34,653 nucleotides of DNA from the IMG/VR virus record IMGVR_UViG_3300047409_000414, positions 1 through 34,653 of that record; one strand, written 5' to 3'. This stretch comes from a virus. The notes beneath the pieces were generated by a model. It did not search any database and had not been told where the DNA came from. It saw only the letters and a list, made by a program, of their open reading frames with translations. Below are positions 1-14,682 of the stretch, piece by piece. The first letter of the stretch is position 1. Every line of letters starts with the position of its first letter. The position numbers were made by a program, and so were the translations under genes.

Positions 1-149
1 CGAAGGTACGCAAGAACGGTCACGATACCCCAGCCAGCCCTCAATAGGCCGGCTCCGACTACCCGCTTGAAGCATATGCAAAATCCGACTGGCGACGCGA
101 TCGGCGGCGCATGCGCGTCGCTGTGGCTCAACCTTATAGGGGATTAGCG
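1..149 (+). other. Left edge: leader of early operon, possible small ORFs
   Basis: No convincing gene lies here. A plus-strand frame open from the window edge ends at a TAG at 45-47 and could be the last 14 codons of a truncated gene. A 23-codon ORF starting ATG at 76 ends with TAG at 145-147, two bases before the ATG of the next gene. It could be a coupled leader peptide or chance. A purine-rich stretch at about 138-142 probably serves as ribosome binding site for the gene at 150. No -35/-10 pair was recognised, so the early promoter may lie outside the window. Confidence 0.25.
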
Positions 150-677
150 ATGGCCCGATCAGCGAAGGATGGAACCAACGGCAAGAAGGGCAAGCAGACC
201 GAGCATCCAGCTACCGCAGGCCATAACGGTCTGAGTGAGGACGATAAGCGCACCCGGTTTTTCAATTACTGCACCAACTGGGAGGCCGCCCGCGCAGCCG
301 TCAAGATCATCGAGGAAGAGGCCAAGAGCGTGCTGGGCAAGCACGTTATCCGTGATTTCCGCACCCAGATCGCGCAGCGCACGCCCGAGGGTGAGGCCAG
401 AATCCGGGAACGCATCGAGACAGCCCTGCGGATCCTGCGCTGGAATGCCAAGGCGCTCGGCACGCAAGCCAACTTTCTGGAGGACGACGATCGTACCCCC
501 GCCGTCGAACGGGCCGAGGAAGAGGGCAAGCGCGATGGTCTCGCCGGCGCTCCCTGCAAGACCGACTACGCGCCCGACACCGAGCAATACCGTCGGTACA
601 TGACGGGTTACCACGCCGGCCAGGCCGTGATGGTCAAGGCTGGCATCAAGCCGATGCCAACGCAACCGGATGCGTGA
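150..677 (+). CDS. Early phage protein with ribosome-modulation-factor-like C-terminus
   Basis: This is a 175-residue protein if started at ATG 150, which has a ribosome binding site just upstream. A start at 111 would add 13 residues without one. The N-terminal 20 or so residues are Lys/Gly-rich and probably disordered. The middle is charged and helical. The last 45 residues (pattern EEGKRDGLAG, then Y, then YMTGYHAGQ) resemble the ribosome modulation factor (RMF) family, in which a small basic protein helps inactivate ribosomes as 100S dimers. This is resemblance by eye, not a domain hit. It heads the early operon and its stop overlaps the start of the resolvase gene. A ribosome-associated role in infected cells is inference; it could equally be a nucleic-acid-binding protein of another kind. 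Confidence 0.75.
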   Translation: MARSAKDGTNGKKGKQTEHPATAGHNGLSEDDKRTRFFNYCTNWEAARAAVKIIEEEAKSVLGKHVIRDFRTQIAQRTPEGEARIRERIETALRILRWNAKALGTQANFLEDDDRTPAVERAEEEGKRDGLAGAPCKTDYAPDTEQYRRYMTGYHAGQAVMVKAGIKPMPTQPDA

Positions 678-1224
678 TGTGCACGGCGATCCAAATTACA
701 TCCTGGCGCTCGATCTCGCGCTGAAGACTGGCTTCGCCTTTGGCGCGGTCGGCACGCCGGTGCCTGAGTTCGGATCGCATAAGCTGTGTGACGACGGCGA
801 GCAGCTCGGCGTCCGCTTCCGCGCGCTGCGCACCTGGCTGATCAAGATGCTGGCCGAGCGGCCGTCGACAACGCGCGTGATCTTCGAGGCGCCGATCCTT
901 CGGCCGCACGACAAGATCGGTACCGTGCGCGCGTTGTGCGGCTATGCCGCGATCGTCGAGGAGCTGTTCGAACAGCGGCCGGCCATCAGGCTGACCGAGG
1001 CGACGCCGAGCGAGCATCGGCGCCACTTCCTGGGCAACATCAACAAGCTCAAGAGCAAGGCCATCAAGGATCTGACGGTCGCGAAGTGTCGACGGCTCGG
1101 CTGGAACCCAACCGACACCGACGCCGCCGACGCTTTGAGCCTCTGGCACTACCAATGCGCACTCATTGATCCGCGCCTCGCGATCGAGGCGTCGCCGCTG
1201 TTTCTGCGGAGGGCTGCATCGTGA
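670..1224 (+). CDS. RuvC-like Holliday junction resolvase
   Basis: The 184-residue protein has the RNase H-like fold signature of RuvC-type resolvases. Asp15 lies in the first strand (ILALDLALKTGFAF), Glu73 in VIFEAP, and a C-terminal acidic pair, Asp151 and Asp154, in DTDAADALSLW. In this family four acidic residues bind two metal ions and cut four-way junctions symmetrically. Phage members resolve recombination or replication intermediates before packaging. The gene overlaps the upstream gene by 8 bp and the downstream gcrA by 4 bp, so it is translated as part of one early operon. An alternative GTG start lies at 679. Length is close to that of bacterial RuvC (about 170 residues). Confidence 0.88.
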   Translation: MRDVHGDPNYILALDLALKTGFAFGAVGTPVPEFGSHKLCDDGEQLGVRFRALRTWLIKMLAERPSTTRVIFEAPILRPHDKIGTVRALCGYAAIVEELFEQRPAIRLTEATPSEHRRHFLGNINKLKSKAIKDLTVAKCRRLGWNPTDTDAADALSLWHYQCALIDPRLAIEASPLFLRRAAS

Positions 1225-1655
1225 GCAAGAGCGAGTTCTGGGTGGAACACCCCGAGGCCGAGCTGCTGATGCGCGAGATGTTCGAGGATGGCTTCACCAT
1301 GAGCCAGATCGGTGCGGTCATCGGCTGCTCGCGCAATGCCGTGATCGGCAAGGTGCATCGTCTCGGGCTTGAGCGCTTCGTGCCGCGTGCAACGCCGTTG
1401 CTGCGGCAGCCGCAGGCAACCAGACGCGCGCGATCGCCGCGACCGCCACCGCCACCGCCGAAGCCATTGCTGGTCGAGGTCGAGGCGCCGACGGCGGAGC
1501 ACGCGCACAAGCAGATCACCGAGCTACAGCACGGCGATTGCCGCTGGCCGGTCGGCGAGCCGGCGGACTTCTGCTTCTGCGCCGAGCCCCAGCGCTGGGA
1601 CTCGAGCTATTGCGCCTACCACGATGACCTCAGCCGGGAGCGCAAGCGCCGATGA
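1221..1655 (+). CDS. gcrA: Phage-encoded GcrA-family cell-cycle regulator
   Basis: This 144-residue protein has a GTG start overlapping the upstream stop. It carries both GcrA hallmarks: an N-terminal helix-turn-helix (about residues 20-50, ending RNAVIGKVHRLGL) and a C-terminal Cys-rich segment (CRWPVGEP...FCFCAEP...SYCAYH). A Pro/Arg-rich linker separates them. In alphaproteobacteria GcrA binds sigma70-RNA polymerase and activates promoters carrying CcrM-methylated GANTC sites in S phase. A phage copy could redirect this circuit or activate phage promoters that carry GANTC. No GANTC methyltransferase gene was seen in the window, so methylation would come from the host. The identification is strong; the role in infection is inference. 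Confidence 0.93.
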   Translation: MSKSEFWVEHPEAELLMREMFEDGFTMSQIGAVIGCSRNAVIGKVHRLGLERFVPRATPLLRQPQATRRARSPRPPPPPPKPLLVEVEAPTAEHAHKQITELQHGDCRWPVGEPADFCFCAEPQRWDSSYCAYHDDLSRERKRR

Positions 1656-1981
1656 CCCGACGATGCCCGCACTGCCAGCAGGTCTTGCCTGAGTTTCGGC
1701 TCGGCGTGCGATTGCCGCCGCTCAAGGCGCGCATCTTCGACCTGGTCCAGCGCGGTGGAGAGGATGGCATCCTGGCGAGCGACCTTCTCAACATCGCGTA
1801 TGCCGATCCGCCCGCTAGCGGTCGCAAGATTTTGAGCTCGCACATCCACCAGATCAATGAGGCGATCGAGGACACCGGTTATCGCATCGTCGGTGGGCAA
1901 GGTGGCAATCGTCGGCCCGATCGCAAGACGTGCCCGGGCGTCTATCGGCTGGTGAACAAGCGTATGAGGAGGGCCGCATGA
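1652..1981 (+). CDS. Zn-finger / winged-helix-like early protein
   Basis: A 109-residue protein whose ATG overlaps the gcrA stop (ATGA). The N-terminus has a CPHC pair that could be half of a zinc ribbon. Residues of about 24-95 (LPPLKARIFDLV, then GILASDLLNIAY, then ILSSHIHQINEAI, then YRIVGG) look like a winged-helix fold of the response-regulator C-terminal type, which binds DNA. It sits between a transcription regulator and an HNH nuclease in a tightly packed operon. A DNA-binding regulator is the most reasonable reading, but no specific family was recognised. Confidence 0.75.
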   Translation: MTRRCPHCQQVLPEFRLGVRLPPLKARIFDLVQRGGEDGILASDLLNIAYADPPASGRKILSSHIHQINEAIEDTGYRIVGGQGGNRRPDRKTCPGVYRLVNKRMRRAA

Positions 1982-2463
1982 ACAAGTGCGAGCACCCCCG
2001 TTCTGAAATACGTCGGCGCGTTCAGTCAAACGGCGTAGTTGCCTACTGGCGGCAGTGCCTTGATTGCTTCCAGGTCGTCGGTAGTGCCGTCAAACACTGC
2101 GATGCGCCAGCGGATGCTTTGCCATTCGATGAAATGGCGCGCCAGCACTATTGGGCCGAACAAGAGCAAGCGCACCGAAACGACTGGGAACAGCGTCAGC
2201 AACAGCGCCGCAGAGAAGATCAGCAGAGAGATCGAGAATGGTGGGACCGTTATAACGATTACCTCGAAGGTGATGGATGGCAGAGGAAGCGGGATTTAGT
2301 TTTTGCTCGCGACGCCAAGCGTTGTCAGGCCAGGCTCGATGGATGCTCGATCTTTGCCACTCAGGTGCACCACCTGACTTACCGGCACGTCTTTAACGAA
2401 CCGTTGTTTGACTTGGTGGCCGTTTGTCAGTCCTGCCACGAACAACTGCACCACGATGAGTGA
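1978..2463 (+). CDS. HNH endonuclease (early region)
   Basis: A 161-residue protein. The start at ATG 1978 is chosen because AGGAGGG lies just upstream and it overlaps the previous stop as ATGA; the open frame extends 16 codons further. The N-terminus has Cys/His pairs (NKCEH and CLDC) that may bind zinc. A charged Gln/Arg-rich helix (about 75-95) follows. The C-terminal HNH motif has CQARLDGC, then VHHLTYRH, Asn and CQSCHEQLHH, the beta-beta-alpha-metal fold that nicks or cuts DNA. It could be a free-standing homing-type nuclease or a replication-associated nickase. It lies between a putative regulator and the primase-helicase and overlaps the latter. Confidence 0.85.
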   Translation: MNKCEHPRSEIRRRVQSNGVVAYWRQCLDCFQVVGSAVKHCDAPADALPFDEMARQHYWAEQEQAHRNDWEQRQQQRRREDQQRDREWWDRYNDYLEGDGWQRKRDLVFARDAKRCQARLDGCSIFATQVHHLTYRHVFNEPLFDLVAVCQSCHEQLHHDE

Positions 2464-4448
2464 TGATCCGCATGACCGTCTTCTCGGCACAAGAGCTATT
2501 GAAGCGGCACAGCATCGACTTCGTCGAGAGCCGGAAGGGTAAGTACACCACCGATTGCCCGAATTGCTCGGGTAATTACCTGAACGTCGAAATCAAACGC
2601 GATGGGGTCGTGTGGTTCTGCCAATCGTGTCAGCAGGGCGCCGGCGAGAAATTCGAGCAGGCAAAGCCCACCGGCGAGCTCGGACCGATCAAAGCGGTGT
2701 ACGACTACACCGATGAAACCGGCAAGCTGTTGTTTCAGGTATTGCGATTCGAACCAATCAATGGCGCCAAGGAATTCCGCCAGCGCACCGGGCCCGATCA
2801 GGAGAAGTGGTCGATCAAGGGCGTGCGGATCGTGCCGTTCAATCTTCCCGCAGTGCTGGAAGCGATCGCAAACGAGCAGACGGTTTTTGTGTGCGAGGGC
2901 GAGAAGGACGTTCTGACACTGCAGCGCCTCGGCATTGTCGCGACGTGCAATCCGATGGGCGCCCAAAAGTGGCGGCGCGAATTCAATGAGCTCTTGCGTG
3001 GTGGCGACATGGTCATCGCCATCGATAACGATGATCCCGGTCGCGAGCATGGCCAACTGGTTGCGCAAAACCTTCTGCCCGTCGCCAAGCGCGTGCGGTT
3101 GCTCGATCTTGCGAAGCACTGGCCGACCATCGAAGTCAGCGACGACGTCACCGATTGGATCGAGCAGGGTGGCAGCCCGGAAGCGCTGTGGTCGATCGTC
3201 GAACAACTCCCGACGCTTGATGAAATCAAACTGAACGGCAGCGGCAACGGCCATGATGAGGCAAAGGTAAACGCAACCCCAGCGTTGCGTCTCTATCTGC
3301 CGAGCGTTTACATCTTTCCCGAGGCGACGGGGATACCCGGGCGCGAATGGATTCATGGTGGGCACTATATCCGCGGCGCAGCCACGGCGACGGTCGCACC
3401 AGGCGGCACGGGCAAGACGACGTTGAGCCTTTACGAGGCCATGATCATGGCCGGCGAGGGATATCGCGTCTGGTACATCAGCGGCGAAGATCCGCGAGTT
3501 GAAATCGATCGACGCCTGGCCGCGCACGTTCAATGGCACAAGTCCGACTTACTGCGCATTCAAGGAAACCTTTTCATCGACGATCGTGAAAGCTATCCGA
3601 TAAAGCTCACAAAGGCCGCACGCGGTGCATCTGTCGTGTTCGACGACCAATGGATCGATTTATTTGCGGCCGGCATTCGCAGGAATCGCTTGGACGTTGT
3701 GACGATCGATCCCTTCATCACGTTCCACACCGTTCCTGAAAACGACAACACCGCGATGGATATGATCATCAAACGCGTCTCGCAGGTCTGCATCGCCGAA
3801 AGGTGCTGCGTTGAGTTCAGTCATCACGTTCGCAAGCCTGCGCAGGCGCAAGCCGAGATCACAGTCGATGACGCGCGCGGGGGCGGCGCGATCGTCAACG
3901 CAGTGCGCTCGTGCCGCGTCATCAACCGTATGTCAACCGAGTTGGCCCAGCAGGCGCGCGTCGATCTGGACAAACGCTCGATGTATCTGCGGCTCGACCC
4001 AGGAAAGCGCAACATGGCGCCAGCCGAGAGCGCATCGTGGTGGCGTCTGGTGTCGGTCAAGATCGCCAACGGCGTCGACAGTGTTCAAGCGATCGAGCGC
4101 TGGGAATTCCCCAAACTATTCGGCGAGGTGTCGGTCGCCGACGCCGAGGCTATTCGGGAGATCGTGCGCAAGGGTGAATCGCGCGCCGACCCTCGCTCAC
4201 CGCATTGGCTCGGGCACGACCTGGCCAAGCGCTTCAAGCGTGACGTCAACAGCAAGGGCGATCGCATCTGGATGAACGCCGTCATCGGCACCTGGCTCGC
4301 CAACGGGTGGTTTGCGAAGGAGCAAAAGTTCGACCCCGACCTGCGCAAGCCACGCACGTTCTACGTGTTGTCGTCTGGCCCCGCCGATCAAACCGCTGCT
4401 GATGCCGACAGCAACATCCCCCCGATGACGAATACCAAGAGGATATGA
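2460..4448 (+). CDS. Bifunctional DNA primase-helicase (Zn finger, TOPRIM, AAA)
   Basis: A 662-residue replication protein (GTG 2460; ATG 2463 or ATG 2472 are alternatives, the last giving the family-like start MTVFSAQELL). Domains in order: a CHC2-like zinc finger with CPNC at 33-36 and CQSC at 54-57; a TOPRIM domain with VCEGEKD (144-150) and IAIDNDDPG (187-194), whose acidic residues bind metal for primer synthesis; then a RepA/RecA-like ATPase with Walker A APGGTGKTT (313-321) and a Walker B candidate VVTIDPF. The arrangement resembles plasmid/phage helicase-primases that prime and unwind the replicon's own origin. The C-terminus may form a winged helix. It ends 20 bp before the repeat array at 4468-4634, the likely origin. 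Confidence 0.92.
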   Translation: MMIRMTVFSAQELLKRHSIDFVESRKGKYTTDCPNCSGNYLNVEIKRDGVVWFCQSCQQGAGEKFEQAKPTGELGPIKAVYDYTDETGKLLFQVLRFEPINGAKEFRQRTGPDQEKWSIKGVRIVPFNLPAVLEAIANEQTVFVCEGEKDVLTLQRLGIVATCNPMGAQKWRREFNELLRGGDMVIAIDNDDPGREHGQLVAQNLLPVAKRVRLLDLAKHWPTIEVSDDVTDWIEQGGSPEALWSIVEQLPTLDEIKLNGSGNGHDEAKVNATPALRLYLPSVYIFPEATGIPGREWIHGGHYIRGAATATVAPGGTGKTTLSLYEAMIMAGEGYRVWYISGEDPRVEIDRRLAAHVQWHKSDLLRIQGNLFIDDRESYPIKLTKAARGASVVFDDQWIDLFAAGIRRNRLDVVTIDPFITFHTVPENDNTAMDMIIKRVSQVCIAERCCVEFSHHVRKPAQAQAEITVDDARGGGAIVNAVRSCRVINRMSTELAQQARVDLDKRSMYLRLDPGKRNMAPAESASWWRLVSVKIANGVDSVQAIERWEFPKLFGEVSVADAEAIREIVRKGESRADPRSPHWLGHDLAKRFKRDVNSKGDRIWMNAVIGTWLANGWFAKEQKFDPDLRKPRTFYVLSSGPADQTAADADSNIPPMTNTKRI

Positions 4449-4467
4449 ACCTGTGAGCGTGCAACCG

Positions 4468-4634
4468 TGCGCCAGTCGGAAACATCAACTGGCGCAGACT
4501 GGCGCAAACCGGTCCCGGAGGGGGTAGTGCGCCAGTGCGCCAGTCCAGGCCCCCCCCTACGGGGGGGGGCCCTGGTGGGGGACCTGACTGGCGCAGAGGC
4601 GCACGGGCCAACCGACTGGCGCACGACTGGCGCA
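4468..4634 (+). repeat. Iteron-like array of eight 9-bp repeats; candidate origin
   Basis: The 9-mer ACTGGCGCA occurs exactly eight times in 167 bp. Five copies are direct (4488-4496, 4498-4506, 4587-4595, 4615-4623, 4626-4634). Three are inverted, reading TGCGCCAGT (4468-4476, 4528-4536, 4536-4544). Inverted copies at 4528-4544 face direct copies from 4587 across a G/C hairpin. Exact copies were not noticed elsewhere in the window. Clustered short repeats next to a replication initiator are the usual form of a theta-type origin. No AT-rich unwinding tract is evident, which argues for caution. A short frame open through the region gives low-complexity protein and is treated as chance. Confidence 0.7.
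4545..4575. other. G/C-only hairpin inside the repeat array
   Basis: Left arm CCAGG followed by eight C (4545-4557), loop TAC, then nine G followed by CCCTGG (4561-4574). The arms pair almost completely with one extra base. No U-tract follows, so it is not a standard terminator. Its central position between facing repeat copies suggests a structural element of the putative origin, for example a single-strand priming hairpin. Confidence 0.6.
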
Positions 4635-4660
4635 GAAACCCGCGGAGGAGTGAGAGGCAG

Positions 4661-4747
4661 ATGACCGAGACCCAGGAGCGCGTGGCCGTCGTGCTGGCCA
4701 TCGTGGCCGCAGCCGTCATCATCGTCCTGATGCTGGTGCTGACGTGA
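4661..4747 (+). CDS. Single-pass membrane micropeptide (28 aa)
   Basis: ATG 4661 follows a strong GGAGGAG at 4643-4649. The product has a short acidic N-terminus (MTETQER) and then one hydrophobic helix of about 20 residues (VAVVLAIVAAAVIIVLMLVLT) to the end. It would insert in the inner membrane with the N-terminus probably cytoplasmic. Function is unknown. Small one-helix proteins in phage early regions may act on host membrane proteins or in superinfection exclusion. The open frame extends upstream to 4535, but that part is low-complexity repeat DNA and was not included. Confidence 0.6.
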   Translation: MTETQERVAVVLAIVAAAVIIVLMLVLT

Positions 4748-4801
4748 CCGCCCCCTCGCCTCAAATCCTGCTGAAAAAACTGACATGGGGAGGAACGACG
4801 A

Positions 4802-5128
4802 ATGACCGCCCGCCGGACATTGCCGCAACGTCGCGCCGCCGAAACCTTCGACCTGCGGCACGGCCAGCAGACCGTGACCGTCACCACCGGCTACTACGCC
4901 GACGGCAGCCTCGGCGAGGTGTTCGTGAGCGCGCCCAAGGCTGGCAGCAGCATGGAGGCGATTGCCCGCGACGCCGCAGTCTTGCTGTCGATCGCCATCC
5001 AGCACCGCGTCCCGCTCGACATCCTGCGCCATGCGATCACGCGCGAGGAGGACGGCTCGGCCTCAAGCATTATCGGCGCGGTGATCGACCGGCTCGCCAA
5101 TGCTTCACTTGCGGACAGAGAATGCTAG
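4802..5128 (+). CDS. TSCPD-domain-like small protein
   Basis: A 108-residue protein with a clear ribosome binding site (GGGGAGGA about 10 bp before the ATG). The pattern (TGYYADGSLGEVFVSAPKAGSS, then Arg/Asp, Ala-rich helix, VPLDILRHAI) matches by eye the TSCPD domain. That domain is found at the C-terminus of some ribonucleotide reductases and as stand-alone small proteins in phages. No reductase gene is present, so the stand-alone protein may modulate a host enzyme or have a structural role. It ends tail to tail with the minus-strand gene at 5125, overlapping by 4 bp. Confidence 0.78.
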   Translation: MTARRTLPQRRAAETFDLRHGQQTVTVTTGYYADGSLGEVFVSAPKAGSSMEAIARDAAVLLSIAIQHRVPLDILRHAITREEDGSASSIIGAVIDRLANASLADREC

Positions 5129-5403
5129 AAAAATTTGAGGCTTGCCAGAATGGCTACGACCGCAGCCGCGATCAGCCCGCCGCGCACAGTCAGGCGATAT
5201 TCCATGGCCAGCATCTCGGTGCGCAGAGCGGCAACCTCGCTTCGCACGTAGCCAACATCGGCCTTCGTGGCGACGCCCGACCGCAGCGCATCTTCCATCG
5301 CATCGGCGTGCGCACGCGCCTGCTCGGCGCCAATGCCGGCGCCGGTGAGCCGGTCGACGTAGCGCAGCCGGTCGAACAGCGGTGGCGAGTCAGCAGTGGT
5401 CAT
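5125..5403 (-). CDS. Coiled-coil, C-terminally anchored protein (DUF1640/CCDC90-like)
   Basis: A 92-residue minus-strand protein with GGAG six bases before ATG 5403. The pattern is an amphipathic start (FDRLRYVDRLTGAGIGAEQARAHADAMEDAL), a coiled coil (ATKADVGYVRSEVAALRTEMLAMEYRL), and a C-terminal membrane helix (RGGLIAAAVVAILASLKFF). This fits the DUF1640/CCDC90-type architecture common in proteobacterial genomes and prophages, whose function in bacteria is unclear. It is the only minus-strand gene in the left half and is transcribed divergently from the NusG paralogue across an 82-bp gap, so the two may share regulation. Confidence 0.8.
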   Translation of the reverse strand: MTTADSPPLFDRLRYVDRLTGAGIGAEQARAHADAMEDALRSGVATKADVGYVRSEVAALRTEMLAMEYRLTVRGGLIAAAVVAILASLKFF

Positions 5404-5485
5404 AAGGCGCTCCAGACACCGTCAGGACGGCTAACGGTCCGTACTCTAGCCGCAACGGCAGCGCAGGTAAAATAGGGATTTTACT
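5404..5485. promoter_or_regulatory. Divergent intergenic region with start-site hairpin before nusG-like gene
   Basis: The 82 bp between divergent genes hold two inverted repeats. CGGCTA (5428-5433) pairs with TAGCCG (5447-5452) across 13 bp, which could be an operator. GTAAAAT (5467-5473) pairs with ATTTTAC (5478-5484) around a four-base loop AGGG that is the core of the Shine-Dalgarno sequence. The ATG follows one base later at 5486. Such a hairpin could present or hide the ribosome binding site, or be a protein-binding palindrome. No clear -35/-10 pair was identified. Confidence 0.55.
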
Positions 5486-6001
5486 ATGACCTACTGGGCC
5501 ATTGCGCAGGTCCAGCCGCAGCGGCTGGCAATCACCAAAACGCTGCTCGATCGTGCTGGCTACGAAATCTACGCGCCCCGCGTCCGCACCCGTCGCCAAG
5601 CAACCGTGCCTGGCGGCCTCTCCTCGCTGCTGTTCCCAGGTTACTTGTTCGTGCGCATCACCGACGGCCGGTTCTACCCGGTGCGCTACACGCCCGGCGT
5701 GGTGCGTCTGCTGATGACCGGCGAATGTCCCGCGCGCATGCCCGAGCGCGAAATCGATGGCCTGCGACGGCGTGAGGTCAAAGGGTTCATCTGGCTGCCG
5801 CCCCGGGTTCCTCGGATCGGCGCCAGGATGCGGATCATCAGTGGGCCCTTCGCTGGGCACCTTGCCCTCTTCGAGGGTATGGCCAGCGGCGATCGACTGC
5901 GCGTCCTGTTCGATTTTCTTGGCAGCGCGGTGCGGATCGAGCTCCCCGGGCACGCAGTGGAACCACAAGATGTTGCAATCAACCGTGGTTTGAGATACTA
6001 G
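5486..6001 (+). CDS. NusG/RfaH-type transcription antitermination factor paralogue
   Basis: A 171-residue protein with NusG architecture: an N-terminal NGN domain (YWAIAQVQPQRLAITKTLLDRAGYEIYAPR at 3-32, then LFPGYLFVRI at 49-58, GVVRLL at 71-76), then a KOW domain (about 112-153: GARMRIISGPFAGHLALFEGM, then RVLFDFLGSAVRIELP). NusG-family proteins ride on RNA polymerase, suppress pausing and couple it to Rho, ribosomes or cis signals. Specialised paralogues (RfaH, LoaP) act on long operons with leader signals. This one lies immediately before a 319-bp structured leader and the late operon. An antiterminator for late genes is therefore the leading hypothesis. It lacks the acidic N-terminal extension seen in some housekeeping NusG proteins. 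Confidence 0.9.
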   Translation: MTYWAIAQVQPQRLAITKTLLDRAGYEIYAPRVRTRRQATVPGGLSSLLFPGYLFVRITDGRFYPVRYTPGVVRLLMTGECPARMPEREIDGLRRREVKGFIWLPPRVPRIGARMRIISGPFAGHLALFEGMASGDRLRVLFDFLGSAVRIELPGHAVEPQDVAINRGLRY

Positions 6002-6320
6002 CGAATTTCCACCCTGCCACGGCAAGCGATTGAATTTGCAAAGGGAAGCCCCAAAAACCGGGCGACCCCAAGTGCAGAGCATTTCCGCAAGCACAACGAA
6101 ATCGGCGCCGGGAGGCCCGTGGCAGGCTGTTTTCCTCGTCGCCGTCGGGTCGTGCCTGTACCGCCCAACCGCAGGCACGACCCGCCCCCACAAACGGGCT
6201 AGGAAGGCCGCTGGTGCTTTCCCAGTTGCTGGGCCTGCCTTCCACGTCACCAGCCCAGAAAAACGCACCACGGGCCTCCTGGCGGGCTGGCATCATCCAT
6301 AAACCAGAGGAGCCCCACCT
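6002..6320 (+). promoter_or_regulatory. Structured gene-free leader of the late operon
   Basis: No convincing coding frame was found in these 319 bp. Several inverted repeats are visible. A perfect 13-bp stem is formed by CGGGTCGTGCCTG (6146-6158) and its complement (6172-6184) around a 13-nt loop. GGAAGGC (6202-6208) pairs with GCCTTCC (6237-6243), enclosing CCCAG/CTGGG (6221-6233). Competing with that, GCTGGTG (6210-6216) pairs with CACCAGC (6248-6254). None is followed by a U-tract, so simple intrinsic termination is unlikely. Lying between a NusG paralogue and the late genes, it may carry the cis RNA signal for antitermination. GAGGAG at 6308-6313 serves the next gene. Confidence 0.6.
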
Positions 6321-6875
6321 ATGAGGACGTGGTTACTTGCGTTCGCGATTGTGCTGGCCATGCCGGCGTCGAGCAAAGCTGCCATCATCGCCGACCTCGG
6401 CGACAATCCCACCTCGGCCACTGGCCACTTCAGCAACAATGTCGGAGGAACGACGTTCGCCGATCAGTATACGTTCAACCTGACCGGCGCACCGCAATTC
6501 ATTGCCTTCGCGTCGGCGACAAATGACTTCATCTCGCCAGCCGACTTCATCACCTCGTTCGCAGGACAGCTCTTCAACTCCGGCCCCAACAACGTACCTG
6601 GAGGTGGAGACGACTTTGCTGTCAATCCTGCGGTGCTTGCTGTTGCATGCCCGACGAACCCCCTGGGGTGTCAGGTCTTGGCTGGTACGGCCCTGCTCGA
6701 TGCCGGTCATTATTTTCTGAACCTGGCTGGTACTGGCGGCGGTACGGCTGGCTATGGCGGTGATCTCACCAGCCGTGCCGTGCCCGGTCCCGTCGCCGGT
6801 GCGGGGTTGCCAGGGCTGGCGATGGCAATCGGGGGCTTGCTGCTCTGGGGGCGACGCCGTCGTCACCCGACTTGA
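6321..6875 (+). CDS. Exported protein with PEP-CTERM-like sorting tail
   Basis: A 184-residue secreted protein. It has a signal peptide (1-20, MRTWLLAFAIVLAMPASSKA), then a Gly/Asn-rich beta-type domain with FADQYTF at 46-52, which recalls the FxDxF class of PEP-CTERM proteins. The end is tripartite: VPGP (154-157), hydrophobic GAGLPGLAMAIGGLLLW, and RRRR (178-181). That layout is the signal for exosortase-like processing, with VPGP in place of PEP. Such proteins are normally bacterial and linked to surface polysaccharide. In a phage it is most likely a lysogenic-conversion gene altering the host surface, or a protein placed in the envelope during infection. Two internal Cys (110 and 117) may form a disulfide. 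Confidence 0.75.
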   Translation: MRTWLLAFAIVLAMPASSKAAIIADLGDNPTSATGHFSNNVGGTTFADQYTFNLTGAPQFIAFASATNDFISPADFITSFAGQLFNSGPNNVPGGGDDFAVNPAVLAVACPTNPLGCQVLAGTALLDAGHYFLNLAGTGGGTAGYGGDLTSRAVPGPVAGAGLPGLAMAIGGLLLWGRRRRHPT

Positions 6876-6908
6876 CGGTGTTGGAGTTCACACCGAAGGA
6901 GGCAACCC

Positions 6909-7172
6909 ATGTCTCTAACCGGCCTTCTGCTCGGGATCATCAACATCGCGATCGTCGTCGCGATCCTCGTTCTCATCGGCTACATCGCCATGTGGATACT
7001 CAGCGCGCTCGGGTTTGCGGTGCCGGCCCAGGTGCAGAAGATATTCATGGTCATCGTCGCGCTGATCGCGCTCTACATGATCGTGTCGTTGCTGCTCGGC
7101 GTGCCGTCGCTGCGCATCATCGGGCACGTGGAGTTGATCGGTGACCACGCGCAAATGGTACGAGCGGCATAG
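6909..7172 (+). CDS. Small two-helix membrane protein
   Basis: An 87-residue protein with a strong GGAGG just upstream of ATG 6909. Two hydrophobic segments (about 5-33 and 43-63) are joined by a short linker containing FAVPAQVQ. The tail is short and hydrophilic. Proteins of this size and shape are common immediately upstream of the terminase genes in alphaproteobacterial prophages. Function is unknown; a holin-like or membrane-remodelling role is possible but unsupported, since the endolysin is about 22 kb away. The next gene starts directly after its stop. Confidence 0.75.
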   Translation: MSLTGLLLGIINIAIVVAILVLIGYIAMWILSALGFAVPAQVQKIFMVIVALIALYMIVSLLLGVPSLRIIGHVELIGDHAQMVRAA

Positions 7173-7499
7173 GTGCGTAAGCTAACGCCGTTCATCCGCA
7201 GCACCGTAGATGCACGTGCCGTCAGGCCACAGGCCCATACAGTCGAGCCGTTCTATCTCACGCAAGAGCATCGGGCATGGCGTGAGGCAGTGATCCGCAA
7301 TGCACAACGCCGATGCGAGGCTATCGACAATGGGTGGCGCTGCGCCAAGGCCGAGCCGCGGCATCGCATGTTCGCCGACCACATCGTGGAAATCAGAGAT
7401 GGTGGTGCCAAGCTCGACCTCGCCAACGGCATGTGCCTTTGCGGCAGCCACCATACGGCGAAGACCATGCGCGCCCGTGCCGAGCGAATGCGGCGATGA
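7173..7499 (+). CDS. HNH endonuclease of the packaging module
   Basis: A 108-residue protein starting at GTG 7173, immediately after the previous stop. The HNH core is CEAIDNGWRCAKAEPRH, then FADHIVEI, then LDLANGMCLCGSHHTAKT: paired Cys and His residues with the DH and N of the motif. Small HNH proteins next to the terminase genes in HK97-type phages work with TerL in specific cleavage and DNA packaging. Position before the terminase genes supports that role here. It differs in sequence from the HNH protein encoded at 1978. Confidence 0.88.
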   Translation: MRKLTPFIRSTVDARAVRPQAHTVEPFYLTQEHRAWREAVIRNAQRRCEAIDNGWRCAKAEPRHRMFADHIVEIRDGGAKLDLANGMCLCGSHHTAKTMRARAERMRR

Positions 7500-7584
7500 G
7501 GGGGGGGCAGGAGAAAAATATTCCCGATGGGGGGTGGCAACCGCACGGGGCTCACGGCCGGATTTTTTAAACCTTGAGGAAGCG
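7500..7584 (+). other. Short non-coding gap before small terminase
   Basis: This 85-bp gap starts with a run of G, contains an AT-rich spot (GAAAAATATTC at about 7512) and a T6 tract at 7563-7568. The stem before the T tract is weak, so a terminator is not claimed. TTGAGGAAGCG just before 7585 supplies the ribosome binding site. Confidence 0.3.
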
Positions 7585-7857
7585 ATGAAAGAAAATTCTC
7601 CGAAAAAGCGCGGACGCCCGCCAAAAAGACAACCCATAGACGAGGCCGTTACGGCTGGCATGACGCCGCTCGATTACATGCTTGCGGTTGTTCGTGATCC
7701 GACTGCTGCGCAAACTCGACGTGACCGCATGGCGATTGCGGCGGCGCCGTACTGCCATCCGCGGACGACCGAGGCTCCGCTTGGCAAGAAGGATCAGGCG
7801 CAGCTCGACGCGGTCACGAGTGCCAAGGGCACCGAGTGGAGCGAGCTGGTGCACTGA
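7585..7857 (+). CDS. Probable small terminase subunit
   Basis: A 90-residue protein; ATG 7585 is preceded by GAGGAAG. The open frame runs further upstream, but that part overlaps the HNH gene. It begins with a Lys/Arg-rich AT-hook-like stretch (KKRGRPPKRQP), then a helical block (MTPLDYMLAVVRDPTAAQTRRDRMAIAAAPYCHPR). This helical motif is familiar from small proteins before TerL in Rhizobiales prophages. Small terminases recognise the packaging site and hand DNA to TerL. Position between the HNH gene and TerL (with one fibre gene in between) supports the call. The protein is shorter than typical TerS (140-180 residues), so it may be a reduced form. Confidence 0.65.
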   Translation: MKENSPKKRGRPPKRQPIDEAVTAGMTPLDYMLAVVRDPTAAQTRRDRMAIAAAPYCHPRTTEAPLGKKDQAQLDAVTSAKGTEWSELVH

Positions 7858-8777
7858 TGGCGATTCCATTCATCGCGGGTCCGAAGATTTCGGCGGGACA
7901 ATCGCTATCCGATGTTGTCGATTGCAGTTCGTCGCCGCCGGTTCGCATCACGATGCCGTCGGCGTGGACACCGGCGCACCTGACGTTTCAGGTTTCGTCC
8001 GATGGCGTGACGTTTGGGGACCTGGTCGATATGAACGGCCAGGAGATCAAAGCTAACGTCAAAGCAAATACTGTTGTGAGGCTATCGTCGCAGTGGATTA
8101 CTGCGCCGGTGTTTCTCAAGTTTCGTTCCGGATCAAGCAGCGTTCCGATCGTGCAAACGGCGGATCGCATTTTTGGATGCACGATGACGAATGATCAGAC
8201 TGGGTCGGTAGGCACCGAAGGGCCGCCAGGTCCCGCAGGCCCGCAGGGGCCGGCTGGCCCGAGTGCGGTCAGCGCGAATGCGGGCAACTTAGCCAAGCTC
8301 GGGACCGACAGTCTCATCCTCGTTCCGAATGCTCTGGTCCTGAAGGGGACCGTTGCCGGTGACGATGCCGCGCCGGGGATGATCGGCGAGGTGATCTCGT
8401 CCAGTAATTTTGGAGGCGTAAGCCTGACGACCGCCATTGCCATGAACGTCACGCAGATCATGCTATCGCCCGGCGACTGGAACGTCGGTGGTGTGGTCAT
8501 TTTCGCGCCTGCCGGCACTGGTCCTAATTCCGTCATCGCGGCGCTCAGCCAGACTGCGGCGGCGTTGCCGTCCGACAACGACGTTGCGACCGGCAAGGGC
8601 ATCATGCAGCAGATTTGGGCCTCGTCGATGCCTGCGGGTAAGACGCAGACCACGCCGACGAGTCTGATCAGGATCAACACCAGTACGGCGAAGCCGGTGT
8701 ACTTGGTGGCGCAGGCGACCTTCGGCGGCGGGACGGTAAACGTGACGGGTTACATCTCCGCCAGGCGCGTGCGCTGA
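7857..8777 (+). CDS. Collagen-like virion surface/fibre protein
   Basis: A 306-residue protein if started at ATG 7857, which overlaps the upstream stop by one base; a start at 7836 would add seven residues. The N-terminal domain (about 1-115) is beta-rich with ISAGQSLSDVVDC and TMPSAWTPAHLTFQVSSDG, a discoidin-like pattern seen in phage surface proteins. Six Gly-X-Y triplets follow (GTE GPP GPA GPQ GPA GPS), a collagen-like stalk that usually drives trimerisation. The C-terminal 170 residues are beta-rich and end in a conserved-looking YISARRVR. It lies between the terminase genes. A head fibre or decoration protein that binds surfaces is the likely role. Confidence 0.75.
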   Translation: MAIPFIAGPKISAGQSLSDVVDCSSSPPVRITMPSAWTPAHLTFQVSSDGVTFGDLVDMNGQEIKANVKANTVVRLSSQWITAPVFLKFRSGSSSVPIVQTADRIFGCTMTNDQTGSVGTEGPPGPAGPQGPAGPSAVSANAGNLAKLGTDSLILVPNALVLKGTVAGDDAAPGMIGEVISSSNFGGVSLTTAIAMNVTQIMLSPGDWNVGGVVIFAPAGTGPNSVIAALSQTAAALPSDNDVATGKGIMQQIWASSMPAGKTQTTPTSLIRINTSTAKPVYLVAQATFGGGTVNVTGYISARRVR

Positions 8778-8785
8778 AGGCCTGC

Positions 8786-10492
8786 ATGTCCCGCGCTGCG
8801 CTCGATCTTTCATGCCGGGATTGGGAAACCCGCATCAGCAATCGTCGCTCGCTCATTCCCGCAGGTGCGCACGGCATCAACCCGGCCGAGACCGCCCGCG
8901 CGATCAAGATATTCGACAAGCTGCGGCTGCCGGATGTGCCGGGCACGCCGGCGCTGGCTGAGGCGGCCGGGGAATGGTTTCGCGAGATCGTCGGCGTGCT
9001 GCTCGGCGCCGTCGATCCGCTGACCGGCGAGCGCGTGATCCGCGAGCTGTTCCTGCTGGCGGCCAAGAAATCTTCGAAGACTTCTTACGGCGCCGCGCTG
9101 ATGGTGACGGCGCTGTTGCTCAACAAAAGGCCGCGCGCGGAATTCCTGCTCGTGGCGCCGACGCAGGCGGTGGCTGATCTGGCGTTCATGCAGGCGGCCG
9201 GCATGACTCAGCTCGACGACGACGGGTTTTTGCAGAAGCGCATGCTGGTGCAGGATCATCTCAAGTGCATCACCGACCGCCGCACCAAGGCGCAGTTGAG
9301 GATCAAGACTTTCGACACGTCGGTATTGACCGGCGTCAAGCCGGCGGGGGTGCTCATCGATGAACTGCACGAGATTGCCAAGACGTCGAAGGCGGGCCGC
9401 ATTATCGGCCAGATCAGAGGCGGGTTGCTGCCGATCCCGGAGGCTTTCCTGGCGTTCATTACCACGCAGTCCGACGAGCCGCCGGTCGGTGCGTTTCGTG
9501 CCGAGCTGAGCATGGCGCGCGCGATTAGGGACGGCAGGGCGAGCGGCGCGATGCTGCCGGTGCTGTATGAATTCCCGGCGGCGATTGCGAATGACCGCGG
9601 CCATCCGCCGGCCTGGCAGGACGTGGCGAACTGGCCGATGGTGACGCCGAACATGGGCAAGTCGATCACCATCGAGCGGCTGGCCGCTGATTTCGAGACC
9701 GCGACCTACAAGGGGTCGGAGGAAATCTGCCGGTGGGCGTCGCAGCACCTCAACATGGAGGTGGGGCTGGCGCTCAAGAGCGACGGCTGGCCCGGCGCCG
9801 AGTTCTGGGCCGATGCCGAAGACGAGACGATCACGATCGATACGATGCTGGAGCGGTGCGAGGTCATCGTGGCCTGCGCCGATGGCGGCGGCCTCGACGA
9901 TCTGTTCGGCTTTGGCCTGATCGGCCGCGATGCGACGACCAAAGATTGGCTGACGTGGTCGCATGCGTGGTGCCATCGCGGCGTGCTCGAGCGCAGGAAG
10001 AGCATCGCATCGCGCCTGCAGGATTTCGCCAAGGCGGGAGAGTTGACCATCGTCGACGACAAGCTCGACGACGTTGCCGAGATGGTCGCGATCATCGAGC
10101 GGGTCAACGAAGCGGGATTGCTGGCGTGCGTCGCGCTCGATCCCGAGGGACCGTATGGCGAGCTGGTCGATGCGCTGGCCGAGATCGGCGTCACCGAGAA
10201 GGACGAGCAGATCGTCGGTGTGCCGCAGGGCTACAAGCTGATGAATGCGATCAAGTCGAGCGAGCGCAAGCTCGCCAACGGCACGCTGTGGCACGCGAAG
10301 TCGGCGTTGATGGACTGGTGTGTTGGCAACGTCCGGCTGGAGCCGACCGCGACCGCCATCCGCGCCACCAAGCAGAACGCAGGCGACGCCAAGATCGACG
10401 CGTGGGCCGCGTTGATGGACGGGGTCACGGTCATGGTGCGCAATCCCAGTCCGACGCGCCTCGTGCCGGAAATGGCGGCGATGATCGCCTGA
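8786..10492 (+). CDS. terL: Terminase large subunit (packaging ATPase-nuclease)
   Basis: A 568-residue TerL of the HK97-like Terminase_1 class. The ATPase domain has a variant Walker A, AAKKSSKTS (92-100), and Walker B VLIDE (189-193). The RNase H-like nuclease half carries ACADGGGLDDLFGFGL and later acidic residues such as Asp in ALDPEG and near AGDAKIDAW, consistent with two-metal catalysis. It pumps DNA into the prohead through the portal and cuts concatemers. Length is typical for the family. The start ATG 8786 lies 9 bp after the previous stop with a weak AAGG. A 494-codon minus-strand frame inside it is a shadow. Confidence 0.93.
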   Translation: MSRAALDLSCRDWETRISNRRSLIPAGAHGINPAETARAIKIFDKLRLPDVPGTPALAEAAGEWFREIVGVLLGAVDPLTGERVIRELFLLAAKKSSKTSYGAALMVTALLLNKRPRAEFLLVAPTQAVADLAFMQAAGMTQLDDDGFLQKRMLVQDHLKCITDRRTKAQLRIKTFDTSVLTGVKPAGVLIDELHEIAKTSKAGRIIGQIRGGLLPIPEAFLAFITTQSDEPPVGAFRAELSMARAIRDGRASGAMLPVLYEFPAAIANDRGHPPAWQDVANWPMVTPNMGKSITIERLAADFETATYKGSEEICRWASQHLNMEVGLALKSDGWPGAEFWADAEDETITIDTMLERCEVIVACADGGGLDDLFGFGLIGRDATTKDWLTWSHAWCHRGVLERRKSIASRLQDFAKAGELTIVDDKLDDVAEMVAIIERVNEAGLLACVALDPEGPYGELVDALAEIGVTEKDEQIVGVPQGYKLMNAIKSSERKLANGTLWHAKSALMDWCVGNVRLEPTATAIRATKQNAGDAKIDAWAALMDGVTVMVRNPSPTRLVPEMAAMIA

Positions 10493-10506
10493 AGGAGTCT
10501 TTCAAA

Positions 10507-12387
10507 ATGTCCACGATCTACAAGACCACCGCCGCTGCAGGCGAAGGCGATCTGGAATTTGTTCTGTCGGACGACACCGTCGACCGCATGGGCGACGTCA
10601 TCGACGCTTCGGGCTGGAAGCTTTCGGAGTTCAAGAAAAATCCGATCGCGCTATTTGGCCATTCAAGCTCGTTCCCGATCGGGAATTGGTCAGACGTTCG
10701 CGTCGATGGCAACAAGCTCATCGGCAAGCTTGAGTTTGCCAAGCGTGGCACTAGCGCCCGCATTGATGAGTTAATCAGCTTGGTCGAGCAGCGAGTGTTA
10801 CGCGCGGTTTCGGTCGGGTTCGAGCCGATCGAGTACGAGCCGCTCGACAAGGAAAAGCCCTACGCCGGTCAACGATTCAAAAAGCAGAACTTGCTGGAAG
10901 CGTCACTGGTGGCGGTGCCGGCGAATCCGGCGGCGCTGCAATTGGCAAAGTCCCTCAAAATCTCCGACGAAACTCTGTCCTTAGCCTTTGGCGAGCATGC
11001 CGGCGTGAGGCGCAAGGACATCCCAACAACTGGCGAGCACGCCGCGACATCTCCTGCCTATAGGGCAACCAAAATGCAAACGCTTCCACAGCGCATCGAG
11101 GATGCGCAAAACGAACTCGTCGCCAAACGTGACAAGCTTACCGAGCTCAACGCCGCCGATACGCTCGATCTTGACGCTATCGAAGAACTGAACGATCAGA
11201 TCGTTCTTTGCGAGCGCTCGCTTGCAGCAATGAAGGCGTCCGAGGCCAAGATCGGCATCAACGCCGCCAAGGCCGAGACGCCTTCACAAGCCGTCGCTCG
11301 TCGGCCGCTCGGCATCAGCCAGCGCGAGGTCAAGGGAATTGACCTGTTCGTGCGCGCGATGGTCGTCCGCGGCTGCGCAAAATTCGGGAACAAGCCGATC
11401 GAGCGGGTGCTGGAGGAACGCTATCCCGGTCACGAGGCTACCGCCTACATCGCCAAAGCCGACCAGACCGTGGGCACGACCACCGTGTCCGGCTGGGCCT
11501 CCGAACTGGTGCAGCAATCCTGGGCGGAATTCCTGCAGGCATTGACCGGGTTCTCGATTTACCCGGCGTTGCGTGCCGGCGGCATCGGCCTGAGTTTCGA
11601 CGGCGTCGGAACCATCAACCTGCCGAGCCGCACCGCTGGCGGCGCCGGCGGCGGGTTCGTCGCGGAAGGCTCGCCCATCCGTGTCGGCCGCATCACCACC
11701 GCACCCACGACGATGACGCCAAGGAAACTTGGTGTGATCGTGCCCTTTACCCGCGAGCTGGCAAAACGATCGACGCCCTCGATCGAAGCCTTGGTTAGGC
11801 AAGCCATTCTTGAGGATACATCGGTCATCCTTGATGCAGCACTTCTCGACAACGTCGCATCGAGCACGGCGAGGCCGGCAGGTCTGCTTAACGGCGTCTC
11901 GGCGACCGCGACTGGCGCGGCCGGCGGCAACTTTGCCGCCATCGTCGCCGACTTCAAAGCGTTGCTCGCGCCGTTCTATGCAGCCAATGCCGCTGACAAC
12001 ATCACCGTCATCATGAACCCGGCGCAGGGGCTATCCCTCGCCTTGACGCCTGATTCCATGGGTCAGTTCGGATGGTCCCAGGCCATCACGAACCGCCTCA
12101 AGATCATCGAATCGACGCACGCGACTGCCAATCGCATCATCGCAATCCGCAATTCTGACTTTGCCACTGCGCTCGGCGATACGCCTGAGTTCGACGTCTC
12201 GGAATCCGCCACCGTTCATATGGAAGATACTACTCCTTTGGAAATCGTGGCCGGAACACCTACGACGGCAGACCCCGTAAGGTCGTTTTTCCAGACCGCA
12301 ACGATCGGTGTGAGAATGCTCATGGACGTGTCGTGGAAAATGCGCCGGTCGGGAATGGTTTCTTGGATCGACACCACCACCTGGTGA
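10507..12387 (+). CDS. Fused prohead protease - major capsid polyprotein
   Basis: A 626-residue protein; ATG 10507 follows AAGGAG, while the long open frame upstream is a TerL shadow. Residues of about 10-150 are an HK97-type prohead protease (U35/S78): His52 in LFGHSSS and Ser102 in VSVGFEP are the expected catalytic residues, and LLEASLVAVPANPAA (129-143) is the family motif. Residues of about 190-255 form a charged coiled coil with the look of a scaffold or delta domain. From about 290 on is an HK97-fold major capsid protein (GTTTVSGWASELVQQ, FVAEGSPI, ILDAALLD). Most relatives encode protease and capsid separately. Fusion implies self-cleavage of a polyprotein during head maturation. Confidence 0.93.
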   Translation: MSTIYKTTAAAGEGDLEFVLSDDTVDRMGDVIDASGWKLSEFKKNPIALFGHSSSFPIGNWSDVRVDGNKLIGKLEFAKRGTSARIDELISLVEQRVLRAVSVGFEPIEYEPLDKEKPYAGQRFKKQNLLEASLVAVPANPAALQLAKSLKISDETLSLAFGEHAGVRRKDIPTTGEHAATSPAYRATKMQTLPQRIEDAQNELVAKRDKLTELNAADTLDLDAIEELNDQIVLCERSLAAMKASEAKIGINAAKAETPSQAVARRPLGISQREVKGIDLFVRAMVVRGCAKFGNKPIERVLEERYPGHEATAYIAKADQTVGTTTVSGWASELVQQSWAEFLQALTGFSIYPALRAGGIGLSFDGVGTINLPSRTAGGAGGGFVAEGSPIRVGRITTAPTTMTPRKLGVIVPFTRELAKRSTPSIEALVRQAILEDTSVILDAALLDNVASSTARPAGLLNGVSATATGAAGGNFAAIVADFKALLAPFYAANAADNITVIMNPAQGLSLALTPDSMGQFGWSQAITNRLKIIESTHATANRIIAIRNSDFATALGDTPEFDVSESATVHMEDTTPLEIVAGTPTTADPVRSFFQTATIGVRMLMDVSWKMRRSGMVSWIDTTTW

Positions 12388-13290: not shown

Positions 13291-14682
13291 TTGGCTATCC
13301 TCGCAAAGATATTCGGCGGCAAAGCAAAGGCCGCCGTTCCGGCCGAAGGCCAATACCGTCCAGGGCCGTACTATCTGAACGACGGAGCGCATAGCGGCTG
13401 GCTGTCTGCAACCGCCGGCCGGTTCTGGAACTGGTGGCAGATGGGCTACTCGTTGCAGTCCTATGGCGACGGCGGCGCTATGGTCGAAGCGTGCGTTTCG
13501 GCCTATTCGCAAACCGTCGCCATGCTCCCTGGCGACCATTGGACATCGGTCGCGAACGGCGGGCGTGAACGTGTCACCACGTCGGCGCTGGCGCGGATCA
13601 TTCGCAGTCCGAATGATTATCAGTCGATGTCGGATTTGCTGCTGAATTTGACGCGGCGGCTTTACACCAAGGGCGAAGCATTCGCCGTCGCCATCCGCAA
13701 TAATCGGTTTGAAATCGACGAATTGCACTGGATGCGCGACGGCTATCCCAACATCGCCGAGGACGGCTCGATATTCTATTCGCTCTATGGCAACGAGGTC
13801 GTGGAGCGACGGTTTAATCTGGCCTATCCGATTCCCGCGCGCGACGTGTTGCACGTCCGGCTGCATACGCCGCGGCACCCGTTGCGAGGGCAGAGTCCAA
13901 TCGTCGCGGCTGCGCTCGAGTTGGAAATGTCGGGCGCGGCGCTGAGCCAGCAGGTCGCCTTCTATCTCAACCAGGCGCGGCCCTCGTTCATCCTGGAAAC
14001 GGACGAGAAACTGACGACGGCGCAGGCGAAGGATTTGCGTGAATTTTGGAATGCGCAAACGCAAGGGGAGAACGCGGGCGGCACGCCAATTTTGAGCTGG
14101 GGCCTGAAATCAAAACCGATCACGGTTGGTGCCAGTGACACGCAGCTTGCCGACATGCTCAAGTGGACCGACCAGCATGTGGCGCTGGCGTTTCGGATGC
14201 CGCTGCAAATCCTCGGCATTGGCGGGACACCGTTCGCCTCGACCGAAGCACTGATGTCGTCGTGGAAATCTACGGGCTTGGGCTTTGCGATCAATCACAT
14301 CGAGGAAGCGATCGGGAAGCTGTTCGCTTTGCGAGGCTACCCGGACGAATACATCGAGTTTGACACCAACGCGCTGCTGCGGTCGTCATTCAAGGAGCGC
14401 ATCGAGGCGCTCAGCATCGGCACCAGGCGCCTGTACACGATCAACGAGGCGCGGGCCGAAGAGGGCCTCGCGGCCAAGCCCGGCGGCGACGAGCTGCTGG
14501 TGCAGATGCAGGACATACCGTTGAGCCAGGCCGGCAAGACGCAGCAACCTGCTCCTGCCCTGCCGGCGCCGGGTGACGACCCGTCTGGTGATGGGGCCGC
14601 CGATGACACCGCCCCGGTAAAGAGCCATGAGCACATCCGCAAATTCCGCGCAGCGCAAGCCGCCCATGCCCTCGCCGCTTGA
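13291..14682 (+). CDS. Portal protein (HK97 family)
   Basis: A 463-residue protein if started at TTG 13291 (AILAKIFGG, a typical portal N-terminus), two bases after the upstream stop. A GTG at 13246 would add 15 residues overlapping the previous gene without a visible ribosome binding site. The portal pattern is clear: MVEACVSAYSQTVAMLPGDHW, then LLLNLTRRLYTKGEAFA, VLHVRLHTP, QSPIVAAALELEM, the clip/stem helices, then LNQARPSFILE and ALAFRMPLQILG. Twelve copies form the DNA channel at one capsid vertex and dock TerL and the connectors. The C-terminus is Pro/Asp-rich and overlaps the next gene by 56 bp. Confidence 0.93.
   Translation: MAILAKIFGGKAKAAVPAEGQYRPGPYYLNDGAHSGWLSATAGRFWNWWQMGYSLQSYGDGGAMVEACVSAYSQTVAMLPGDHWTSVANGGRERVTTSALARIIRSPNDYQSMSDLLLNLTRRLYTKGEAFAVAIRNNRFEIDELHWMRDGYPNIAEDGSIFYSLYGNEVVERRFNLAYPIPARDVLHVRLHTPRHPLRGQSPIVAAALELEMSGAALSQQVAFYLNQARPSFILETDEKLTTAQAKDLREFWNAQTQGENAGGTPILSWGLKSKPITVGASDTQLADMLKWTDQHVALAFRMPLQILGIGGTPFASTEALMSSWKSTGLGFAINHIEEAIGKLFALRGYPDEYIEFDTNALLRSSFKERIEALSIGTRRLYTINEARAEEGLAAKPGGDELLVQMQDIPLSQAGKTQQPAPALPAPGDDPSGDGAADDTAPVKSHEHIRKFRAAQAAHALAA

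Follow-up and report, generated by a model that had tools for sequence, protein, structure and literature searches.

A putative RfaH/JUMPstart-type cassette at the head of the late operon of uncultured phages

Main finding

A cassette of the RfaH/JUMPstart type, apparently captured, quite probably acts in the phage analysed here as a late-operon switch, which by analogy with its bacterial counterpart would make RNA polymerase processive on a 22-kb late operon. The elements on which this reading is built are established by observation, namely protein family, synteny, site, abutting hairpin, their conservation, and a change in the loop of the site that is linked to one in the pocket of the protein. 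Judged from the sequences of its relatives, the layout is common to many uncultured phages.

Results

Gene order

The window, that is the whole stretch of DNA analysed (34,653 bases), corresponds to an entire IMG/VR virus record. Early genes occupy the plus strand from 111 to 5128, including a primase/helicase at 2460-4448 (profile matches), and are followed on the opposite strand by a small ORF (5125-5403), the copy of which in the sister contig L002 is 80% identical. Because this minus-strand ORF divides it from the early plus-strand genes, the factor gene probably has a promoter of its own in 5404-5485. The first gene of the late transcription unit (5486-6001, plus strand) encodes a specialised elongation factor of RfaH/NusG type (NGN + KOW, 171 aa), hereafter P0001. 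A non-coding leader of 319 bp (6002-6320, plus strand) lies between this gene and the late genes, and the putative target, a late operon of ~22 kb (6321-28606, plus strand), was delimited by the ORF list and family matches. Both the 319-bp gap and a late operon of more than 20 kb beyond it had been reported in the initial annotation, and both are present as claimed, the plus-strand genes of 6321-28606 including terminase, portal, capsid and tail. In full, the operon encodes a PEP-CTERM-like protein, HNH, a tail-fibre-like protein, TerL, protease/capsid, portal, tape measure and tail genes. A repressor and an integrase (family matches) are found on the minus strand at the right end of the record.

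Some genes deserve mention in their own right. The small ORF at 4802-5128 matches the TSCPD end of PRK07562, a vitamin-B12-dependent ribonucleotide reductase (48 bits), and in L002 the PRK07562-type match is in two pieces, ~590 bases apart. One ORF, at about 10500-12387, is an apparent fusion of prohead protease and HK97-type major capsid protein. Collagen-like Gly-Pro-Pro repeats are found in the proteins encoded at 7836-8777 and 14627-15505, the former additionally matching a phage tail-fibre family. The first gene after the site (6321-6875) encodes a PEP-CTERM-like exported protein with C-terminal VPGPVAGAGLPGLAMAIGGLLLWGRRRR, which scores 34.8 bits against NF038126, under the cut-off of 50. 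A PEP-CTERM-type protein (VPEASTWTMLAIGFAALAGFAVSRKRS), unrelated in sequence to the latter, is encoded at 6571-7137 in L016. PEP-CTERM sorting is normally found in exosortase/EPS hosts.

The factor protein

P0001 belongs to the NusG/Spt5 superfamily, NGN being followed by KOW. The score against Pfam NusG is 45.3 bits (cut-off 22.2). The KOW motif stays under the cut-off by sequence (13.1 bits), and is predicted as a C-terminal beta barrel, following an NGN domain, in the AlphaFold2 model (pLDDT 84), the nearest PDB structures of which are NusG and recruited RfaH. The complete NusG-type protein annotated initially at 5486-6001 is thereby confirmed. The best NCBIfam model is RfaH TIGR01955 (71 bits), the equivalog cut-off of 144.5 not being reached; nor are those of the LoaP model NF033641 (27.6 bits, cut-off 125) and the UpxY model NF033644 (40 bits, cut-off 100). 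PHROG 6386, named 'transcription antiterminator', is matched with 65 bits (E = 1.5e-17). In the alignment, the set of residues by which RfaH contacts ops (K10, H20, R23, Q24, T72, R73) is not kept as a whole, P0001 featuring Q, L, R, A, T and P at positions 10, 20, 23, 24, 72 and 73, respectively; the HTT anti-pausing motif is replaced by gap-F-Y. The position of RfaH E48 is occupied by S, and the single AlphaFold2 state, with a beta-barrel KOW, is compatible with switching of the kind seen in RfaH, whose autoinhibited KOW is alpha-helical and refolds. P0001 is hence of specialised-NusG/RfaH type, closest to RfaH models but failing several of the tests by which RfaH is defined.

The ops-like site

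Viral relatives (66) were gathered by protein similarity alone, and the DNA after each stop codon was read; motif counts refer to 58 non-redundant viral loci. The E. coli ops core, GCGGTAGC, was found on the sense strand within 200 nt after the stop in 13 of these, against a mean of 0.21 and a maximum of 2 in 200 shuffles. Control counts in the same loci were 0 on the antisense strand, 0 at 600-800 nt downstream, and 4 in the 200 nt upstream of the gene. GCGGTAGC is missing in the 200 nt after the window gene, where the T-less variant TGCAGAGCA is found instead. At the same location the window clade has a shortened form, (C/T)GC-RGM-GC(G/A); sites in the clade closest to the window read TGCAGCGCG, CGCAGCGCG, CGCGGCGCG or CGCGGAGCG, reside 54-114 nt after the stop, and are usually followed by T-rich DNA. 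No site was found in ~27 of the 58 viral relatives, mostly from another clade of the tree. L023 and L024, sister to L016 within the T-less clade, have no recognisable site, and their downstream gene starts within ~30 nt.

The candidate loading/pause site of the window is GTGCAGAGCATTTCC (6072-6086, plus strand; matrix match of 11.7 bits), the core of which, TGC-AGA-GCA (6073-6081), is a triloop form devoid of the T6 of E. coli ops. The matrix was built from 13 sites of window-clade type from other phages, the window and L002 being left out, and ranks 6072-6086 above every other plus-strand site of the record; a score of 11.7 bits is reached by 0.65% of shuffled leaders, and by one minus-strand site elsewhere in the record. 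The window-clade form emerged unprompted, as GCRGCGCGTT, also from a motif-free Gibbs search, scoring above shuffled, upstream and far-downstream controls, over the last by a modest margin (374 vs 346). Since Gibbs runs on all 58 loci ended at differing local optima, the targeted counts reported above were added. The 6072-6086 site has TT in place of the TG pause dinucleotide of ops, and departs from ops at the base most specifically read by RfaH. Rfam gave no match anywhere in the window.

A hairpin abutting the site

The ops-like site is abutted by the hairpin GGG-aa-GCCC-(CAAAAACC)-GGGC-ga-CCC (6043-6068, plus strand; fold z = -2.6), a probable pause hairpin of the nascent RNA, which ends 4 nt 5' of the variant core. 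The hairpin end falls 0-5 nt before the core in most loci. For the 36 nt that end at the core, fold z averages -2.2 across 31 phage loci; at offsets of at least 12 nt on either side the mean ranges from -0.3 to +0.4. Stems vary in sequence among loci, unlike the ops-like core. Stem covariation, suggested at the outset as a check, was monitored on this hairpin and did not bear out: five pairs changed on both sides in the primary-sequence alignment, a number not above shuffled controls, in an alignment in which L008 and the window are mis-registered, the stems being too diverged to align. The case for the abutting hairpin consequently rests on position and stability, as gauged by the fold profile anchored at the site, which took the place of covariation. 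E. coli JUMPstart is itself able to form a stem-loop directly 5' of ops, and the leader of the putative target has a stem-loop at the same place, next to a variant core. Were polymerase halted as at ops, 10-14 nt would separate the hairpin from the 3' end of the RNA, a spacing similar to that known for hairpin-stabilised pauses.

Hairpin and site together (6043-6086) are the conserved leader feature, which the initial annotation did not include. It had proposed a check on whether relatives keep gene and leader together; gene, leader signal and late operon are indeed jointly kept.

Other structures of the leader

Attention had been drawn originally to a perfect 13-bp hairpin (arms 6146-6158 and 6172-6184, plus strand). 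This is real and beyond chance: none of 3000 shuffled leaders contains one, and the leader is the sole 319-nt tile of the whole record with such a hairpin. A long-range stem of 17 pairs, one of them G-T (6106-6122 with 6268-6284, plus strand), encloses it, and the leader as a whole folds with z = -3.4. The further claim of two mutually exclusive stems is not supported, as the MFE structure contains both stems together. In L002, whose protein is 94% identical, the 13-bp stem is kept with one T-A to T-G change, and the long-range stem has lost two pairs by sequence comparison. The 13-bp hairpin was not found in relatives more distant than L002. Because it is common only to the window and L002, its distribution indicates that it is not the conserved leader signal.

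These data bear on a LoaP-like alternative, in which the phage NusG protein antiterminates the late operon by reading an RNA hairpin, either the 13-bp or the abutting one, rather than non-template DNA. In its favour, the leader is rich in structure, most relatives have a hairpin abutting the site, and there is room for RNA recognition in that the window clade has not retained the DNA contacts by which RfaH is specific for T. Yet P0001 scores 71 bits with RfaH and 27.6 with LoaP (cut-off 125), the ops-like core is conserved and the sequence of the hairpin is not, and the 13-bp hairpin is confined to the window and L002; the alternative is therefore considered unlikely. Of the late system originally proposed, the phage NusG paralogue, the leader signal and the long late operon are supported, and are kept in relatives; recognition of the 13-bp hairpin in the manner of LoaP is not supported, the conserved signal being ops-like.

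A second long hairpin immediately precedes the first late gene's start codon in L003 (1864-2074), L004 (6471-6678), L005 (6477-6684) and L006 (6486-6713). Its arms are changed yet complementary, as GCCAGGTGCC..GGCGCCTGG and GCCAGGGCATC..GATGCCCTGG, and in these loci the start codon behind it is often without a Shine-Dalgarno sequence.

Linked changes in the loop of the site and the pocket of the protein

When RfaH is bound to ops, the loop G4-A7 (GGTA) is closed by the C3:G8 pair, as its structure shows, and T6 is flipped out of this loop into a pocket made of H20, R23, Q24 and R73 (PMC5995543). Window-clade sites retain the closing GC...GC, the loop being cut to GGA, GGC, AGC or AGA, without T6. 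Of 12 proteins with GGTA-type sites 10 retain Gln24, and of 14 proteins whose sites are T-less one does so (Fisher p = 1.7e-4, uncorrected for descent). The exception is L008, in which GGGTAGC is also found nearby. T-less sites fall in a single supported clade of the tree (99/94; 15/17 rows), and for this reason the losses of T6 and Q24 appear to be essentially one linked evolutionary change. Within the clade, loops starting with G are paired with R20 (4/4) and loops starting with A with L, F, N or Q20 (10/10 rows), a pairing which reflects few independent events.

The joint absence of T6 in the site and of Gln24 in the pocket suggests, as far as sequences tell, an orthogonal factor-site pair. 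Odds are about even for the broader scenario, in which a captured RfaH cassette would have taken over from Q- or N-type control in a widespread group of temperate phages, and would have been made orthogonal in the window clade by the T-less loop, the remodelled pocket and the pause hairpin, without cross-talk between phage and host RfaH. The natural protein-site pairs (GGTA, GGA, GGC, AGC and AGA loops) provide an experimental handle on changing the DNA specificity of specialised NusG factors. How such specificity is acquired or changed is a question left open in passages of the RfaH evolution literature (PMC7593976).

Chromosomal and other relatives

GCGGTAGC resides within 200 nt after the gene in 32 of 100 chromosomal relatives, including 17 of 20 from one alphaproteobacterial family; 29 of the 32 sites are located 45-107 nt after the gene. 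Chromosomal cassettes also feature an abutting hairpin, typically ..GGGTGA..TCACCCGGACT-GCGGTAGC (mean z -1.6), and their neighbours are mostly of glycan-cluster kind (asparagine synthase, DegT aminotransferase, glycosyl transferase, GDP-mannose dehydratase, ABC transporter). A JUMPstart-like element thus occurs outside gammaproteobacteria, hairpin and GCGGTAGC, often as TCACCCGGACT-GCGGTAGC, being found behind most of the listed alphaproteobacterial chromosomal RfaH-like genes and before glycan genes (L068, L069, L088, L090, L098, L099, L124, L127, L131, L135, L144, L152-L169).

That the chromosomal relatives are prophages of the window clade was considered and rejected: 14 regions inspected (392 genomes, one alphaproteobacterial family) showed no similarity to the other phage proteins of the window or to the terminase set, and Pfam matches in 10 of them were mostly of glycan-cluster kind. 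Since chromosomal cassettes precede glycan genes and the regions inspected resemble none of the window's other phage genes, the phage cassette looks either captured from, or common to, surface-glycan operons. No relative of P0001 was found among the cultured phages of INPHARED. With other members as queries, the matches were confined to NusG/RfaH genes of hosts on host contigs, to records that were metagenomic and unannotated or labelled as host, and to a single nusG, from the Microcystis phage MaAM05. Among the cultured phages searched there is hence no isolate with a system made of a NusG factor and an ops-like leader.

It is improbable that P0001 is a host-directed regulator, acting on host EPS/O-antigen operons, or that a host RfaH-like factor serves the phage site, late-gene control being secondary in either case. 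The notion draws on the chromosomal relatives of this bacterial class, in which hairpin and ops precede glycan genes, and on the PEP-CTERM-like surface protein encoded by the next gene in the window and L016. Against it, the gene heads a packaging operon in many unrelated phages, and site and pocket of the window clade have moved jointly away from the host GGTA type, a shift by which host sites would no longer be served by the phage factor.

Genes and signals downstream

Among 28 loci scanned, 20 have a terminase or a portal as the longest plus-strand ORF of the 5 kb that follow. The terminase large subunit holds this place in the window, L005, L006, L008, L010, L011, L013, L014, L016, L028, L029, L032, L035, L041, L042, L051 and L062, a portal or portal-type protein in L019 (DUF4055), L025 and L046. 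A terminase of the window's type is likewise downstream in L003. The largest downstream gene is not a packaging gene in L009 (sulfatase), L012 (methylase), L015 and L033, and the longest ORF of L017, L018, L022 and L030 has no Pfam match. Because terminases downstream of the cassette fall in several families, cassette-bearing phages belong, by sequence, to more than one phage lineage.

No sigma70-like promoter was seen at 4400-9000, in a scan blind to alphaproteobacterial or phage-specific promoters. No strong intrinsic terminator was found in the late operon, plus-strand terminator-like candidates being few and weak; bypass of intrinsic terminators as an obvious need was accordingly discarded. 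Given the lack of sigma70-like promoters at 4400-9000 and the weakness of terminator-like sites, the factor is more likely to relieve pausing and Rho-dependent polarity than to carry polymerase past one strong terminator.

The promoter scan could equally have missed an ordinary late promoter, and the leader, given its fold (z = -3.4), could be an RNA stability or translation element, no NusG factor being involved. This explanation is highly unlikely, as it leaves unexplained why ops core and hairpin are so sharply positioned with respect to the factor gene, both in diverged phages and in chromosomes.

Discussion

Antitermination, pausing and loading are drawn by analogy with RfaH/ops. In the preferred reading, a late-operon switch of RfaH/JUMPstart type, RNA polymerase would start in front of the factor gene, transcribe it, and enter the leader. 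There the nascent-RNA hairpin (6043-6068) and the ops-like sequence (6073-6084) may, on the geometry described, pause the enzyme. The non-template strand, (T/C)GC-RGM-GC(A/G), would form a tiny hairpin, the loop of which would be read, as in ops/RfaH, by the N-terminal domain of P0001. Remaining on polymerase, P0001 would confer resistance to pausing and termination along the 22-kb late operon, the termination resisted being most likely of Rho type, since no strong intrinsic terminator is seen. Because the factor gene is promoter-proximal to its own target, action would be autogenous and feed-forward.

Textbook types of phage antitermination are N, Q and put. If the reading is true, a NusG paralogue serving late genes from a recognisable loading site is another strategy, and helps explain how a 20-kb virion operon is expressed in alphaproteobacterial phages, for which few late regulators are, to our knowledge, described. 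In the literature covered, which included few subscription papers, no phage RfaH-type factor with an ops-like site of its own at the head of a late operon was found, nor was a T-less ops variant; on phage-encoded NusG or RfaH the same literature holds only a remark that rfaH-like genes reside on plasmids and prophages.

Comparison with known systems

Late antiterminators of phages and GTAs, such as Q, AlpA, GafZ and Xp10 p7, confer processivity on polymerase in operons that are late and virion-type or derived from phages (PMC11150451, PMC7969949, PMC4513864). Late, virion-type operons are the shared target, but the proteins are unrelated, and Q, AlpA and GafZ load at the promoter, whereas the candidate site lies here several hundred nt into the transcript. 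PHROG 6386 catalogues NusG-type proteins in phage genomes, as here, yet the entry has no leader site, target or mechanism. As with LoaP, UpxY and TaA, the gene adjoins its target operon and a signal lies in the leader; P0001, however, scores far under the LoaP and UpxY cut-offs (27.6/125 and 40/100), and it is an ops-like core that is conserved.

RfaH relatives of plasmids (ActX, PrfaH of IncX3 (9ik0), NusG paralogues of tra operons) are likewise specialised NusG proteins on mobile elements. Several lie inside the long operon presumably served, according to passages of PMC7593976 and PMC7819879, in which recruitment sites for resident plasmid paralogues are not reported. They differ in serving conjugation or pilus operons, in place of phage packaging and morphogenesis. 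The closest likeness is to RfaH with ops/JUMPstart of E. coli and relatives: both systems have a NusG paralogue with NGN and KOW, a single leader site with a GC-loop-GC core (GCGGTAGC in many relatives), and a long, hard-to-express operon. Differences are that the factor is here encoded by a phage, beside its own target, which is a late virion operon; that the loop of the window clade is without T6 and P0001 without K10, H20, Q24, R73 and HTT; and that the KOW of P0001 is predicted as a beta barrel, that of RfaH being an alpha hairpin. The cassette would thus work like RfaH/ops, yet through a protein that fails several of the defining tests of RfaH proper.
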